DNA of 64,000 nucleotides, from the NCBI GenBank assembly GCA_951828535.1, contig OX639990.1:1103300-1167299 (forward strand), read 5' to 3'. The position numbers and the translations under genes were made by a program. Numbering within the stretch: the stretch's first letter is position 1; each line of letters starts with the position of its first letter. This stretch comes from an uncultured Candidatus Entotheonella sp. (GTDB lineage: Bacteria > Tectomicrobia > Entotheonellia > Entotheonellales > Entotheonellaceae). Positions 5,149-43,260 of the stretch are shown one piece after another. A model generated the notes under the pieces. The model was not told the origin of the DNA and ran no database searches. It saw only the letters and a list, made by a program, of their open reading frames with translations.

Positions 5149-6336
5149 TCACACAACATCCCGCAATACACCACCACACGCTTTCACCGTCGTCCCGGCG
5201 TATTCGCGCGCCCAGCGATCCGCCTCCAGCGCCACTGATATGTCGTCAAGAGGAATGGCCATATGCCGTGCCATGGTGGCCTCAATCACCTTCGGAATCG
5301 CCAGGAAATTGATCAACCCTTCGAGGAAAGCTTGCACGGCGACCTCGTTGGCGGCGTTCAGAACAGCTGGCATGGTGCCCCCACAACGTGCCGCTTCAAC
5401 GGCCAACCGCAGGCATGGAAAACGGTCGTGGTCAGGAGAATGGAAATGCAGGGCTCGCACGGAAAACAGATCGAGCGACGGCAGGGTGTTCGGCAGTCGC
5501 TGCGGATAAGCCAGGGCGTAGGAGATTGGTACTCGCATGTCTGGAATGCCAAGTTGGGCAAGCACGGAACCGTCGTGAAATTCAACCATGGAGTGAACAA
5601 TGCTCTCAGGGTGCACGACGATCTGGAGATTCTCGACAGGCACGTGAAAAAGTTGGTGCGCCTCAATCAGCTCAAGTCCCTTGTTCATCATCGTGGCGGA
5701 GTCGACCGTAATTTTCGGACCCATTTTCCAGTTCGGGTGCTTGAGGGCCTCGACGACGCTGGCGGATCGCATGTCATCTAACGACCAGTCGCGGAACGGC
5801 CCGCCGGATGCCGTCAGTAAGATACGGCGCAACGCCGATCGCTGCTGATTTTGCAGGACCTGAAAAATAGCGTTGTGCTCACTATCGACAGGGATAATTC
5901 TCCCCCACTCCGGCCTATCGGGACGGATGATCAATTCTCCCGCCATGACCAGGGATTCCTTGTTCGCCAGTGCCACGTCCAACCCGGCCTGGACGGCGCG
6001 CAGAGTCGGCCACAGTCCGATAGAGCCAACCACCGCCGACATCACCAAGTCAACATCGGGATACACAGCGGCGCGGCACAGTCCGTCCAAGCCTGAATCC
6101 ACCTCGACATCCAGATTTCCCAGACGGTCACGCAGATAGTCGGCTTTTTTCTCGTCGAACAGCACGGCCAGCCGCGGGCGGAAACGGCGCACCTGCTCCT
6201 CAAGCTTGTCCACGTTGGAGTGGGCTGCGAGCGCCAGCACGGCAAATTTGTCAGAATGAGAAGCGATCACGCTCAAGGTGTTAACACCAATTGAACCCGT
6301 TGAACCGAGCACGGCGATACCTTTTCGGGTGTCCAT
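5149..6336 (-). CDS. dxr: 1-deoxy-D-xylulose-5-phosphate reductoisomerase
   Basis: 395 residues; makes 2-C-methyl-D-erythritol 4-phosphate, the committed step of the MEP isoprenoid pathway, using NADPH. The Rossmann motif GSTGSIGVNTL opens the protein; ANKESLVMAGE, the metal-binding PVDSEHNAIFQ, LTASGGPF and the MMNKGLELIEAH helix are all present, as is the C-terminal NAANEVAVQAFL. Length is normal. It follows cdsA by 36 bases in the usual cdsA-dxr order. Downstream is the broken thpR instead of rseP. Confidence 0.97.
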   Translation of the reverse strand: MDTRKGIAVLGSTGSIGVNTLSVIASHSDKFAVLALAAHSNVDKLEEQVRRFRPRLAVLFDEKKADYLRDRLGNLDVEVDSGLDGLCRAAVYPDVDLVMSAVVGSIGLWPTLRAVQAGLDVALANKESLVMAGELIIRPDRPEWGRIIPVDSEHNAIFQVLQNQQRSALRRILLTASGGPFRDWSLDDMRSASVVEALKHPNWKMGPKITVDSATMMNKGLELIEAHQLFHVPVENLQIVVHPESIVHSMVEFHDGSVLAQLGIPDMRVPISYALAYPQRLPNTLPSLDLFSVRALHFHSPDHDRFPCLRLAVEAARCGGTMPAVLNAANEVAVQAFLEGLINFLAIPKVIEATMARHMAIPLDDISVALEADRWAREYAGTTVKACGGVLRDVV

Positions 6337-6372
6337 ACAAACGCCTCCCTAATCCGTCCACAAGGCACATCC

Positions 6373-7188
6373 TCAGGCAGCGGACGCCTTGCCCAGCGCT
6401 TCAAGCGCATAGCATAACGTCGGGGCAGCGAACAGCATGCTGTCGATACGATCCAGACCACCCCCGTGGCCGGGAATGAGCCCGCTGGAGTCTTTTGCAC
6501 CGGTGTAGCGTTTGAGCATTGATTCTCCCAAATCACTGATCTGAGCCGCAAGCGTTATGAGGAAACCGAGCAGCACGCCTTGCCACAGCAGCAGTTGAGG
6601 TACCAGGAACGGTGCCGTCGCCCCGGCGGTCACCACACCGCTCAGCGCCCCCCCTATGGCGCCTTCCCAGGTTTTACCGGGGCTGAGCGATCCGACCAGT
6701 CGGCGGCGTCCCAGGAGCTTTCCAGTATACATGGCCATGGAGTCACTGACCCACACCGTGATGCACATGAAAAGCAGGTACCATTGCCCCGCCTGCATGC
6801 CGCGTAGAACGATAAAGTGGCTGAGGCACCAGGCAATGCCAAGGACGCCGAAAGCGCCGTGCAGCACCATGGGAAATTTACCGGACACGCCCTGCGAAGA
6901 AATGATAGCGGTCAGGGTGAGTAGCAAGAGGCTAAGGAACAGCGCCGGCGAAAGCCAAGGCCAGCCGCCCAGATAGGCCGCCACCGTCAGGGCAAAGGCC
7001 GCAACGTAACAAGCCCCGCTACCGATGGGCAAGTTTATCCGTTTCAACAGGGTGCTGTATTCGTGTAAAGCCAGGATGCTGACGGCTAAAACAAGGAGGG
7101 AAAACAGTTCAACAGGCGCGTACAGAAGGATAAGAATGAAGGGGGGAAGAATTACCAGGGCACTGATCACACGCCGCAATTGTTCCAT
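6373..7188 (-). CDS. cdsA: Phosphatidate cytidylyltransferase (CDP-diacylglycerol synthase)
   Basis: 271 residues, an integral membrane enzyme that makes CDP-diacylglycerol from phosphatidic acid and CTP. Several hydrophobic helices fill the first 190 residues. The family signature is near the C-terminus: LSPGKTWEGAIGG followed by DLGESMLKRYTGAKDSS and HGGGLDRIDSMLFAAP. It sits between frr and dxr, but the uppS gene that usually lies just upstream is missing: the 135 bases to frr encode nothing recognisable. Confidence 0.95.
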   Translation of the reverse strand: MEQLRRVISALVILPPFILILLYAPVELFSLLVLAVSILALHEYSTLLKRINLPIGSGACYVAAFALTVAAYLGGWPWLSPALFLSLLLLTLTAIISSQGVSGKFPMVLHGAFGVLGIAWCLSHFIVLRGMQAGQWYLLFMCITVWVSDSMAMYTGKLLGRRRLVGSLSPGKTWEGAIGGALSGVVTAGATAPFLVPQLLLWQGVLLGFLITLAAQISDLGESMLKRYTGAKDSSGLIPGHGGGLDRIDSMLFAAPTLCYALEALGKASAA

Positions 7189-38957: not shown

Positions 38958-39155
38958 TCACTCGTCCGTCTCAAACAAGGTTTCGATTTCTGTCGAGTCC
39001 ATACGGTCAAAATCCTTGGGCACGGAGATTTCGCCAGCCAGAAACCCGGTTCGGCTCGTCGCCCCGAACCTTGGTGTTTCCACCGCCACGACGTTGCCCG
39101 CAGCACGTATATGCCGTGCAAGAATGTCCCGGACATCACCGGGATTTTTCGACAC
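38958..39155 (-). pseudogene. Antitoxin-like tail fragment (Phd/YefM-type C-terminus?)
   Basis: An open frame of 65 residues whose second half, SRTGFLAGEISVPKDFDRMD followed by STEIETLFE, looks like the C-terminal tail of prevent-host-death (Phd/YefM) antitoxins, which typically read GxLKGxIxVPDDFDxxxxxEIxxLFE. The first half is unrelated and begins inside the Res remnant in another frame. It is read as a scrap of an antitoxin gene lacking its DNA-binding half. Low certainty. Confidence 0.4.
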
Positions 39156-39285
39156 GGCGCAGGCCGCGCCCTATCACCTACTCGCACAGAAGCTGGCTGG
39201 TAAAGGCGCGCGGCCCCATGATGTGGGTCACGGTTTTCGCGTCCCACCCCTTGGAAAGTATGCCAACGGAAATCACTTTCTGTAC
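39154..39285 (-). pseudogene. Remnant of type III restriction enzyme Res subunit (helicase motif VI region)
   Basis: The frame reads [20 protein letters not shown], then [15 protein letters not shown], a TAG, then VIGRGLRR. This is the conserved helicase segment of Res subunits, normally ...[32 protein letters not shown], with the Gln turned into a stop. Only about 44 codons remain. The res gene would normally follow mod directly; here it is found after three other genes, so most of it was lost or replaced. Confidence 0.75.
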
Positions 39286-39572
39286 TCGCTCGTGCGCCGT
39301 CGTCCACACGATATCCAAATCGACTGCGTCATAGGTATGAATCGTGCGGTTGCGCATGCCGACCATCCGGCCCACGGAATCGCCGCATGCCGCTCCCGGA
39401 ATGCCGCCGAAACCCGGCCTGCCGCCTCGCCGATGATCTCTAGCCGCGGGATGACGGAATCCTGCAATTGGACGTTTCGCATGAAATCCTCCTGCGTCAC
39501 CCCTTCGAGGTAGGCCCGCACCAGTCGCGCGGACCCGACAATGTCTACGATGTGCGAGCCGTCACGATCCAT
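39286..39572 (-). pseudogene. hepT: HepT-like HEPN ribonuclease toxin, frameshifted
   Basis: From ATG 39572 the frame reads [20 protein letters not shown] through [20 protein letters not shown] to AIPW near 39380. The homology then moves to the next frame: [20 protein letters not shown] and VWTT. One missing base near 39376-39380 explains it. The HEPN catalytic motif RNxxIHxY (RNRTIHTY) lies after the break. The end is lost at the Res remnant. It partners mntA, whose repaired end overlaps its start by 11 bases. Confidence 0.8.
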
Positions 39573-39872
39573 AGATCACCTGGGCGGATTTCAGGATGCT
39601 GTTCCTGCGCAGTTGGTTGTGACTCGCCTCAATCCCCCGCCGACTGACCAGATCGACCTTGCGCCCGAAGATTTCTTCAATTCGAGCTCCATGTCGTCGA
39701 GATCGAACAGCGTGTGCCTGGCGCCTTTTCCAAAACTAACCAGCACGTCTACATCGCTGTCCGCGCCGAAGTCGTTCAGCAATGCCGACCCGAACAGCGC
39801 AAGCTCGGTGATCTGCCAGCGCCGACAGAAGGCGGCAATCCCGTCAGGCGGTACGTTGATACGTGCGTTCAT
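39562..39872 (-). pseudogene. mntA: MntA-like nucleotidyltransferase antitoxin, frameshifted
   Basis: The frame from ATG 39872 (MNARINVPPDGIAAFCRRWQ) carries the minimal nucleotidyltransferase motif FGSALLNDFGADSDVDVLV and reaches MELELKK. There the homology shifts frame: IFGRKVDLVSRRGIEASHNQ then LRRNSILKSAQVIYGS, stopping at 39562. One lost base near 39681 accounts for this. MntA normally AMPylates HepT to neutralise it. Its start overlaps the TIR-like gene stop by four bases (ATGA). Confidence 0.82.
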
Positions 39873-40699
39873 GTTGCAAATACCCGATTCGCGTCGATGT
39901 CGTATCCGGCGTTCTTCAACTCCTGGACAAGACTCATTTTCCATCCGTCAGAATCGTCCAGCGGGATGTAAAGGACGCCATCGTAGTCCGACGGCCTTTC
40001 CAAGTCCCCCTGCACCAAGGCGCAGACGTGTTCCCGACCGAGCTTCCCGATGAAGTACCCAAACTCGAAAATGACGTTTTGCCTTGCGCGAGGCCTGGAT
40101 TCGCCCGTACCGTCTTGCAGCCTGCCTATATCGTCCGGCGTCAACAGAACCACGGCGAACCCGACACGCGCAAAATCCTCAAACTTTTCAATAATCGTGC
40201 GGCCTTCATTCGGCTGCTCGTGCAGCACCACGGGTTTGAGTTCCAACCTTTCCAGGAACCTCGCTATTTTTTCACGAGCTCCTTCGTCTCTGCCGTGGAC
40301 GACAAAGACTTCTTTCGTGGTTATCTGTTCACCTTTGTGGTTGTCGGAGGACTGTGACGCCTCACTTTCGTCTTCCCAATACTCGTTGATCTCATGAATC
40401 ATGGATTCGAGTATCGCCGCTGCCGATTCGAGGCCTCGCGTATAGGCATTCTGACGGTCCGGAGCAGATTGGTATACCGAAGATGAAAATTGGTATGCGG
40501 AAGATGGAAAGTAACGTACTGCTTCAAATTCGCCGATATGGCGTGAATCGCTACCAAACGTGCTGGTGATGGCCACCCTCGTATCTCTTTGCCATTTTTC
40601 AAATGATGGCGAGTCCGGCCGAAATTGTTTCAGTTCAGGCATTTCACCCAGCGCCTTGCGCAGCCGTTCAAGCGCTTTGCCTTTTTTCGTTTGCGCCAT
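39869..40699 (-). CDS. TIR-like nucleotide-binding protein (PF10137 type)
   Basis: 276 residues. The C-terminal domain is the TIR-like predicted nucleotide-binding domain: VFVVHGRDEGAREKIARFLE at 131-150, HEQPNEGRTIIEKFE at 160-174, GFAVVLLTPDD at 180-190, and ARQNVIFEFGYFIGKLGR at 205-222. Members occur in antiphage systems, where such domains degrade NAD or bind nucleotide signals. Residues 1-120 are a helical N-domain (SFEKWQRDTRVAI, LESAAAILESMIHEI). Its ATG overlaps the mod stop (TGATG) and its stop overlaps mntA (ATGA), so it is coupled to both. No break is seen. Confidence 0.85.
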   Translation of the reverse strand: MAQTKKGKALERLRKALGEMPELKQFRPDSPSFEKWQRDTRVAITSTFGSDSRHIGEFEAVRYFPSSAYQFSSSVYQSAPDRQNAYTRGLESAAAILESMIHEINEYWEDESEASQSSDNHKGEQITTKEVFVVHGRDEGAREKIARFLERLELKPVVLHEQPNEGRTIIEKFEDFARVGFAVVLLTPDDIGRLQDGTGESRPRARQNVIFEFGYFIGKLGREHVCALVQGDLERPSDYDGVLYIPLDDSDGWKMSLVQELKNAGYDIDANRVFAT

Positions 40700-41033
40700 C
40701 ACCCGACCTCCACGATCTTCAGACTCTCAATCCCCCGGTCGTCCACAATTTTCACCGCTGCCCGTCGATGCTCCCCCGCCTCAAACGGCAGCAAGACGGT
40801 GCCCCGATAGGCTTCCATCTGGCTTGCATCGATCTCGGCCCTGAGATGGTGAGCCAGCTTCGCCCAGCCGTCGTTGCCGCCGGCCATGGGGAAAAACACC
40901 TGGCGCGGAAACAGGCTGCGCCCGTCATAGTCCGGGTCGAGCATCCACAGGGCGATGTGGTCCGAACCGCCGGATTCGACGTTGCCGGTCTTGGTGTTGT
41001 AGTAGTCAAAGCCGTGCACCGCCAGGCTGTGCA

Positions 41034-41496
41034 AGTTTTGAGTTGATCGTTTTGAGGGCGGGGTTGGATGGGAAAATTCAGGGCTTCAGCGATTTCTGCA
41101 AGCCTGCCAGCAACCTGCCGATCTCCTCGCAGCCGCTCAATAACCCTTCGGCATCCGGCGAGGTCAGATACCCCAAATTCTCCGAAATCGTCAGCAACGT
41201 TTCCAATTCCGCCAACGAGCCTTGGGCTATTCCAAGAAACTGCCGGAACTCCCCGCTCGTGTTTCTGGCTTGGCCTTCCGCGATATTGGCCGATATCGAA
41301 ATCCCAGCCCTGCGTATCTGCGAGGTAATGCCATACGTCTCTTCCTTGGGAAAGGAGCGCGTAGAGGCATAGAGCTTGCCAATCAAGCCGATTGATCTCT
41401 TCCAGACGATCAAGTCCCGATAGCTTCTTGAACGCTCCATATTCGCCAAGCCTCCGCCGCCCCTCACCAAAAACTAAAACCTGAAAACTCGAAACT
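41034..41496 (-). mobile_element. Small IVS-like element carrying a four-helix-bundle protein gene, inserted in mod
   Basis: The 463-base insert separates two parts of mod. Its ends are near-inverted copies: AGTTTTGAGTT at 41034-41044 and AACTCGAAACT at 41486-41496 (10 of 11 positions complementary). Inside, the flanks are rich in short words such as CTGAAAACTCGAAAC and CTCAAAAC. No clear target duplication was found. The content is one gene for a 23S-rRNA-intervening-sequence-type protein. Such sequences are known from 23S rRNA genes and as free copies; how they move is not known. Confidence 0.7.
41078..41440 (-). CDS. Four-helix-bundle protein, S23 / 23S rRNA-intervening-sequence family
   Basis: 120 residues. 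The family pattern is clear: YRDLIVWKRSIGLIGKLYAS, FPKEETYGITSQIRRAGISI, SANIAEGQARNTSGEFRQFL and IAQGSLAELETLL. Members form pentamers of four-helix bundles with a basic face; a role in nucleic-acid binding is suspected, none proven. ATG 41440 follows GGAGG. It lies in an element that breaks the mod gene and reads in the same direction. Confidence 0.9.
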   Translation of the reverse strand: MERSRSYRDLIVWKRSIGLIGKLYASTRSFPKEETYGITSQIRRAGISISANIAEGQARNTSGEFRQFLGIAQGSLAELETLLTISENLGYLTSPDAEGLLSGCEEIGRLLAGLQKSLKP

Positions 41497-43260
41497 TCCA
41501 CGTCTAGTTGGCCGATCAGCCAGAAGCTCTCATTGCCTGCCCGCTTCTTCTTCAGGTCGCCGGTCAGCAAGTCGGCGTTCATCTGCGCCTTGAGCAAGGC
41601 GACCCCGGGCCACTGGGTCTCGTCGATGTCCTTGGCCGCCTCGGGGTCGAACTGAAACGCTGCGAAGACGATGATCTTCGGTTTGGGCACGAGGCTTCGC
41701 GCCTCCTCAATGGCGCGGGCGACCTGCCGCTGGTCCAGCAGGGCGTGGTTCGGACCGAATGAAACCACGAAGGACGTGGACGTGTAGGCGGTGGCGGATT
41801 CATGCACGTGATCGGCCCCGGCGGCGTCCGGGCGCGTCTCGCCCTCGGCGTGCAGCCAGCGGGTGCCCGGCAACAGTTCCAGCCGCGCAAACGAGATGCG
41901 CTGCCCGGCCTTACCGCGAATGCCTGTCTTGAGCAATTCGTCGCGCCCATCACTTTGCCGCAGAGTCTCACCGGTGCGGACGATCGAAAGATCGGCGGTA
42001 ATGCCTGCTTCAGGGTCGGGATGATTATCGACGATCTTATCCACTGCCGTGACAACGGGAGCCGGCACCGCCTCAACAGTGAACAGCCCGGTAACACGGG
42101 CTTTCCTGTGGTCGATCTTCGGCTGGTCGTAGAGTGTGATCGGGCTGGGCGATTCATCGTAGGCTATGGTCGCTGCAGAAACTCTGGGCGCGCTCTTGAA
42201 CACAAAACTGCTGCCCACACCCTCATAAGGATGAACGAGTCCGTAGTAGTCGAAATTAGCTGTCATCAGTCGCTGTCGTGCGATGGCGATGGCAACCCGC
42301 GACGTGTCGCAGGTAATCCACCGACGACCCCATTGCTCGGCGACCAGAGCTGTTGTGCCGGAACCACAAGTGGGATCAAAGATCAGATCTCCCAGATCAG
42401 TCGTCATCAAGATACAACGCTGGATAACCTTTTCGTCAGTCTGTACTACGCATTTCGGCTTGAGTTTACGCATCTGTGACGACCATACATTGTGTATAGT
42501 CTTCCCGGCACCGAAAATTTCATCCATGACCACGCCGACGCGATGGACGTTCTCATCGCCTATCTGCACGAAACAGCTTCCGCTCTCATGCAAAAGCTCC
42601 CGCGCCAGCAGCAAGCGGTCTCGGAGATACAGCGAGGTAGGAGTGAACGCCAAGCTCCCAGGTGCCCGGAAGGCGCGAATCTGCTCCGGCTCGCCGGTCA
42701 GGTCGTCATCCCTGCCGTCGATAACCTCGCGTCGGTTCACGAAGGGCAGGAAGTTGGAGCCGTAGCGGATGCCGTAGGGTGGGTCGAGGTAGACCGTCTG
42801 CACCTGCCCGCCAAGGCCCTCCTTCTCGATCAGGCTGTTCATCACCAACAGGCTGTCGCCCGCAATCAGGCGATTGGTCCAGTTGTGGCGGTGACGGTAG
42901 AACTCGATGGCCTGGCGGAGCGGCGGGTTTTCCCCCGACGCAGCAAACAGGGACATCTGCGGTTGCGCGCCGTTTCGCTTGCGCACCGGCTCAACAATCG
43001 TGCGCGGGTCGATGCGCTCGTGCACGTGCAACGACACGGTCGGCACCTCGAACGATGTATGCTCCGCCTTGGCGGCCCACGAGAATTGCGGGTCCAAGTG
43101 CGGGTCGTGGGCATAGATCCTACGGCCCGTGTCTCGGTCGGTCTCCGGCGTGACCAAGCCGACGGGCGGGTTACTCACACGCTCCTTATCGGTATGCGCG
43201 TAGGTCTCAATGTCCCGCCAAGCCTTGCGCCGCGCCATGATTCGTCCCCTTCCCTGTTCG

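Follow-up and report, generated by a model that had tools for sequence, protein, structure and literature searches.

Our analysis of a 64,000-nt stretch of DNA from an uncultured Candidatus Entotheonella sp. (GCA_951828535.1, contig OX639990.1, positions 1,103,300 to 1,167,299; hereafter the window), a sponge-symbiont-like bacterium, revealed a decayed minus-strand operon that follows holA/rpsT. We interpret this locus, with a probability of about 0.85, as the relic of a type III-like restriction–modification (R-M) operon, made up of mod and a BPTD_3080-type res, in which genes for a TIR-like protein, MntA and HepT were embedded between mod and res. The original prediction, which was based upon the sequence of the window alone, had seen in the same genes a single designed cassette standing in the place of res, the restriction subunit having plausibly been replaced by abortive-infection modules. 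The gene order is mod–TIR–mntA–hepT–res.

The decayed mod gene (40699–43238; all genes described here are on the minus strand) encodes a type III-like N6-adenine DNA methyltransferase and was recognized by PF01555 (E 1.4e-19) and the PADLOC model MTase_III PDLC03632 (E 1e-88). It is followed by the TIR-like effector gene (39869–40699; PF10137, E 3.1e-39; PADLOC PDC-S35, E 4e-87), by the minimal nucleotidyltransferase antitoxin gene mntA (39562–39872; PF01909, E 3.7e-9; PDC-S09, E 5e-13; two frames in tblastn) and by the HEPN ribonuclease toxin gene hepT, which is in two pieces (39265–39572; PF01934, E 6e-8 and 1e-7). A first res fragment (39154–39291; NF046055 restr_BPTD_3080, E 4e-18, profile positions 572–608) is fused to the end of hepT, and a second (39069–39155), from near the 3′ end of res, was found by tblastn. 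The predicted overlaps were all present: mod ends in ...GGG TGA TGG and shares 1 nt with the TIR-like ATG at 40699 (TGATG), the TIR-like stop lies within an ATGA at 39872–39869, and mntA, when read in two frames, overlaps hepT by 11 nt (39572–39562), hepT starting with the ATG at 39572 and mntA stopping at 39564–39562. It was also correct that the TIR-like gene, an open reading frame (ORF) of 276 aa, is the sole intact member, with mntA, hepT and the 3′ part of mod all frame-shifted. The res remnants after hepT, an internal deletion in mod and a PF05635 gene nested within mod are additions to the original prediction.

The course of decay could be read against a syntenic locus in a sibling species, another uncultured Candidatus Entotheonella (L002), which is arranged as rpsT–mod (1009 aa)–TIR–mnt remnant–res (894 aa)–hyuA. 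The window mod aligns to residues 1–253, 406–896 and 895–1009 of the sibling's protein, the last block in another frame after a frame change near 41030, and about 150 codons (sibling residues ~254–405) are deleted between two conserved methyltransferase blocks. Both motifs of an N6/N4 methyltransferase domain, DPPYGIRY and DPTCGSGTT, are retained, with the region between them deleted. The first res fragment corresponds to residues 469–514 of the sibling's Res (83 % identity; NF046055 match with E 4.8e-24 in the genome search) and the second to residues 854–882 (90 % identity), and the remainder of res is deleted. The window also shares the flanks of the sibling locus (rpsT, with hyuA downstream). 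Because res fragments follow hepT, and the sibling has res at that position, res originally lay behind the cargo and has been deleted, not replaced. As a member of the type III-like R-M systems with a BPTD_3080-family res (NF046055; MTase_III PDLC03632), the locus has the same mod and res families in the same order as its intact relatives; it differs from them in that res is reduced to two fragments, a large part of the methyltransferase region of mod is missing and further genes lie between the two, and it is a non-functional relic. No mention of BPTD_3080 was found in the literature searched.

A scan with the window TIR protein yielded 24 loci. Its closest full-length relatives adjoin mod directly, in the sibling Entotheonella (L002), Bryobacterales of the Acidobacteriota (L003), Nitrospirota (L004 and L005) and a gammaproteobacterium (L006), and a further locus in Nitrospirota (L041) was found via mod. 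The order mod–TIR–mntA–(hepT)–res was seen in L003, L004, L005 and L041, and L006 carries mod–TIR–MNT/HEPN genes–res. Each of the six TIR loci whose mod is complete or nearly so (L002–L006 and L041) has a full-length res downstream of its cargo, although that of L006 is aligned in two pieces. The junctions recur as well. The mod/TIR overlap, TGATG or TAATG, was found in seven loci (the window, L003, L004, L005, L006, L041 and L034, a second locus in the window's own genome), L002 having a gap of ~50 nt instead; the TIR/mntA overlap, ATGA or GTGA, in six (the window, L003, L004, L005, L041 and L034); and the 11-nt mntA/hepT overlap in the window, L003, L006, L007 and L034. With the same junctions in six to seven loci, the overlap arrangement exceeds chance. 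The original prediction had proposed that recurrence in unrelated hosts would support a conserved system, and that TIR homologues never found beside mod, or overlaps that are not kept, would mark the arrangement as accidental; a tightly overlapped unit does recur in Acidobacteriota, Nitrospirota, a gammaproteobacterium and the sibling Entotheonella, and both adjacency and overlaps are kept. The composition of the unit varies, as TIR and mntA occur without hepT in L005 and L041, and MNT/HEPN genes occur without TIR in L051.

The wider sampling of mod homologues in 295 Nitrospirota, 396 Acidobacteriota and 369 gammaproteobacterial genomes retrieved 40 loci and places this unit in a broader context. 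Both mod and res were present in 37 loci (L002–L006 included); the two genes were <300 nt apart in 9 and >1 kb apart in 23 (18 of 32 when L002–L006 are excluded), and many of the longer gaps hold genes of known defence families. The contents of this bay include AAA/OLD-type ATPases related to PD-T4-4 and HEC-01, a pair from the cyclic-oligonucleotide-based antiphage signalling system (CBASS), GmrSD, BrnT–BrnA, Bro-N, TIR and MNT/HEPN genes, among others. L003–L006 and L041 thus independently carry defence genes inside another defence operon, flanked by its core genes, in addition to the loci with other cargo. Start/stop overlaps at the mod end were also found with unrelated cargo (TGATG in L043 and L047; ATGA in L048, L052, L057 and L068), and the coupling therefore belongs to the end of mod, not to the TIR module. 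What stood of the predicted cassette is a recurrent, overlapped unit; to call it a single designed one is too strong, given the mod-end overlap shared with other cargo and the varying composition. An extra copy of the mod 3′ tail precedes the cargo in L005 (11205–11285), L041 (oriented 5500–5580) and, as a larger copy, L047 (6896–8146), and in L007 (9923–10000) the mod tail alone precedes TIR. These tail copies suggest that cargo may be swapped by recombination in the conserved 3′ tail of mod. The mod–res gap of this R-M family is a site where defence genes are exchanged, and recombination probably takes hold at the end of mod. The CBASS pair, a CD-NTase with Cap15, was seen between mod and res in L060 (oriented 5444–6925). 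Schlafen (L064) and DUF4917/PDC-S21 (L070) genes were also observed behind mod, with no res within the retrieved stretch.

In intact copies of the operon, Mod would methylate host DNA and, together with Res, would cleave unmethylated DNA. The embedded genes probably share one message with mod, their translation being coupled to its stop codon. A second-line role is probable for the TIR protein, which would consume nicotinamide adenine dinucleotide (NAD) or bind nucleotides and stop growth once triggered, and MntA–HepT would behave as a type VII toxin–antitoxin pair in which the RNase is held inactive by AMPylation. The cargo would change over time through recombination at the mod tail. In the window genome, a deletion removed res, and mod, mntA and hepT decayed, with the TIR gene still whole. 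Of this picture, anatomy, recurrence and decay are shown; that the genes share a message, what the enzymes do, what triggers them and how cargo recombines is inferred.

The effectors were also found apart from their carrier. Elsewhere in the window's genome, L034 (C1, around 3108350–3110100) holds intact TIR, mntA and hepT genes, mod and res being reduced there to fragments of 139 and 31 aa, and L007 holds TIR–mntA–hepT with neither mod nor res beyond the mod tail. Embedded effectors can therefore outlast the R-M core, as the TIR gene alone has done in the window. These effector-only loci allow a test of the dependence of embedded effectors upon the system that hosts them, which bears upon a model in which the Mod–Res complex silences TIR and HepT and releases them when a phage protein disables R-M. 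Such a guard arrangement is in keeping with the position of the genes inside the mod–res operon and their apparent translational coupling to mod, and it has precedents in the HEPN proteins of R-M operons, argued to be held in check by R-M proteins (PMC3710099), and in PARIS inside the bacteriophage exclusion (BREX) operon (PMC11341690). We nevertheless consider it doubtful in its strict form, because effectors that are whole without R-M genes in L034 and L007, and a whole TIR gene beside a broken mod and res in the window, speak against it; the R-M proteins are seemingly unneeded for the effectors to be tolerated.

The replacement of res by abortive-infection modules, such that mod, TIR and MntA–HepT form a complete cassette, would account for the tight overlaps in the window and its relatives, but it is hardly credible given the res genes downstream of the cargo in all six comparable relatives, and it is already refuted at this locus by the res fragments; the differing module composition among loci also counts against it. 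A chance neighbourhood within a defence island, the genes being functionally unlinked and their short overlaps ordinary, could appeal to the more distant PF10137 proteins, which are mostly unlinked to this mod, and short overlaps are common in bacterial operons. It is nonetheless very improbable, as in the close subfamily TIR lies directly behind mod with the same junction in four major lineages, and TIR protein identities of 53–71 % make a single recent transfer among the hosts unlikely. Some observations also weigh against our own interpretation of an R-M relic with embedded effectors. Relaxed selection on the window mod is a trend only, with nonsynonymous to synonymous counts of 33:58 on the window branch versus 8:30 (P = 0.10, not significant). 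The intact TIR ORF of the window may simply have yet to decay. Furthermore, the sequence match of the TIR domain to Cap12 spans only ~75 residues and the structural model of the protein has a predicted template modelling score (pTM) of 0.49.

The TIR-like protein comprises a helical N-terminal domain (about residues 1–110) and a PF10137 TIR domain (131–248). The conserved (catalytic) glutamate of PF10137 TIR/PDC-S35 proteins is present as Glu212, which is invariant in 16 sequences and lies in an NVIFEFG motif that aligns to NVVFEFG of Cap12. The AlphaFold model shows the helical N-terminal domain, and its TIR domain matched TIR-STING structures (best E 2e-6); a structure search with the N-terminal domain gave no informative match beyond TIR-STING. 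The protein resembles the CAP12-Pycsar TIR proteins in its TIR domain, its motif and a full-length PADLOC match, but differs from them in carrying the N-terminal helical domain in place of a STING or other cyclic-nucleotide sensor, and no cyclase was found next to TIR in the window or in the mod-linked TIR loci. Its role is most likely NAD-consuming growth arrest upon infection, for which the N-terminal domain may serve as a sensor or an oligomerization part. The pairwise ratio of nonsynonymous to synonymous substitution rates (dN/dS) between the window and sibling TIR genes was 0.32, and the window branch showed no significant excess of amino acid changes (9:11 versus 7:17, P = 0.35). Among phage and plasmid collections, TIR homologues were common on plasmids, mostly as matches to the TIR domain only. 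Two loci of genome G003 (L035 and L036) hold PF10137 TIR proteins whose N-terminal part resembles, by eye, a response-regulator receiver domain and which lie beside large signalling proteins, and a 428-aa protein of L037 (7964–9250; G002:C1 698469) joins the TIR subfamily's N-terminal domain to a different C-terminal part.

The window mntA product belongs to NTP_transf_2 and, despite being split over two frames, keeps the GSx10DxD motif, while the RxxxxHxY motif of hepT (RNRTIHTY) falls in the second of its PF01934 pieces. The pair thus resembles type VII MntA–HepT toxin–antitoxin systems in its antitoxin-first order, its 11-nt overlap and its motifs; unlike them, both of its genes are broken and it is embedded in an R-M operon. 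The window MntA–HepT is inactive, and an intact pair occurs at L034 of the same genome.

In the manner of the guard model, PrrC is held silent by EcoprrI and is set free once a phage protein disables R-M. The present locus resembles PrrC in the type Ic R-M system EcoprrI (general knowledge, PMC3710099) in having an effector gene within an R-M operon, whereas its effector is a different one and has been retained after loss of the R-M genes. Defence genes embedded in multigene immune systems have been reported (Payne et al. 2024, bioRxiv 10.1101/2024.01.29.577857, as cited in PMC11411939), and include TgvAB, embedded in a type I R-M operon (PMC11411939), and PARIS, embedded in BREX (PMC11341690). 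The present arrangement is recurrent but of this already described kind, with unrelated defence modules inside a modification-based operon, and TIR and MntA are already PADLOC candidates (PDC-S35 and PDC-S09). It differs from the reported embeddings in its type III-like mod–res carrier, its TIR and MntA–HepT cargo and the mod-tail repeats, which suggest a route of exchange. To this our analysis adds a type III-like carrier that forms a variable bay, duplications of the mod tail, and loci in which only effectors survive.

A separate feature of the window mod is a nested gene of the intervening-sequence protein (IVP) family, read in another frame at 41081–41440 and encoding a four-helix bundle (PF05635, E 4.6e-36; TIGR02436, E 2.5e-35). 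Alignment of the window and L002 with the element-less mods of L003, L004 and L006 placed the whole element at approximately 41030–41500, with imperfect inverted low-complexity ends (GAGTTTTCAG.../...CTCAAAACTTG) that were unreported by a repeat search of the window and that differ between window/L002 and L005. The gene occupies the same mod site in the window, L002 (9201–9560), L005 (9280–9636) and L051 (2429–2785), which represent three lineages. In all four, the mod frame, which is the IVP frame +2, is free of stops across the gene. It leaves the element correctly in L002 and L005, giving uninterrupted mods, and is lost at the 3′ repeat in the window; L051 is decayed. The probability of a stop-free +2 frame under random synonymous recoding was 0.014 for the window, 0.02–0.05 for L002, 0.015–0.044 for L005 and 0.006–0.008 for L051. 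The window and sibling differ at 24 of 360 nt over the gene (codon positions 8/10/6), too few to judge selection on either frame.

An open +2 frame was considered as a general property of IVP genes and rejected, as that frame is interrupted by stops in 99 of 100 such genes sampled in Nitrospirota and Acidobacteriota. The exception (L081/L182, G036:C34) is itself nested, in a 1376-aa BREX pglX whose frame is open through the IVP gene (recoding probability at most 0.0006), and a relative (G052), 87 % identical over the part searched, has a pglX frame of 1181 codons without the element. Only PglX was checked there by hidden Markov model; the neighbouring long ORFs were read by eye as BrxC, PglZ and BrxL. 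Elsewhere in this pglX, the same GTGGCGA-type repeat occurs alone, as a short stretch.

We see an even chance that PF05635 elements can act as gene-bearing, frame-preserving insertions in DNA-methyltransferase genes, with the +2 frame serving as a pass-through linker of the host enzyme and both proteins being made. Survivorship, whereby insertions last in working genes only if they do no harm, accounts for the open host frame as well as adaptation does, and either way the host protein would bear an insert of ~150–195 residues. If both frames are translated, a gene resembling a mobile element would here overprint a host immune gene and yet leave it unbroken, which is rare. The 23S rRNA intervening-sequence proteins share the PF05635 gene and the inverted-repeat ends, although the window IVP lies inside mod and not in rRNA. 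No earlier description of IVP genes within protein-coding genes was found in a literature search that missed most subscription papers. The nearest analogy is provided by the Rickettsia palindromic elements (PMC10969869), which likewise insert into a host ORF that is kept open, whereas the IVP element brings a complete gene, read in a different frame from its protein-coding host gene. A search of viral contigs for IVP gave a single short match. PF05635 genes are frequent and multi-copy; they occur in 43 of 100 genomes of Nitrospirota and 85 of 199 of Acidobacteriota, a single genome having as many as 14 strong matches, and in none of 14 control genomes.

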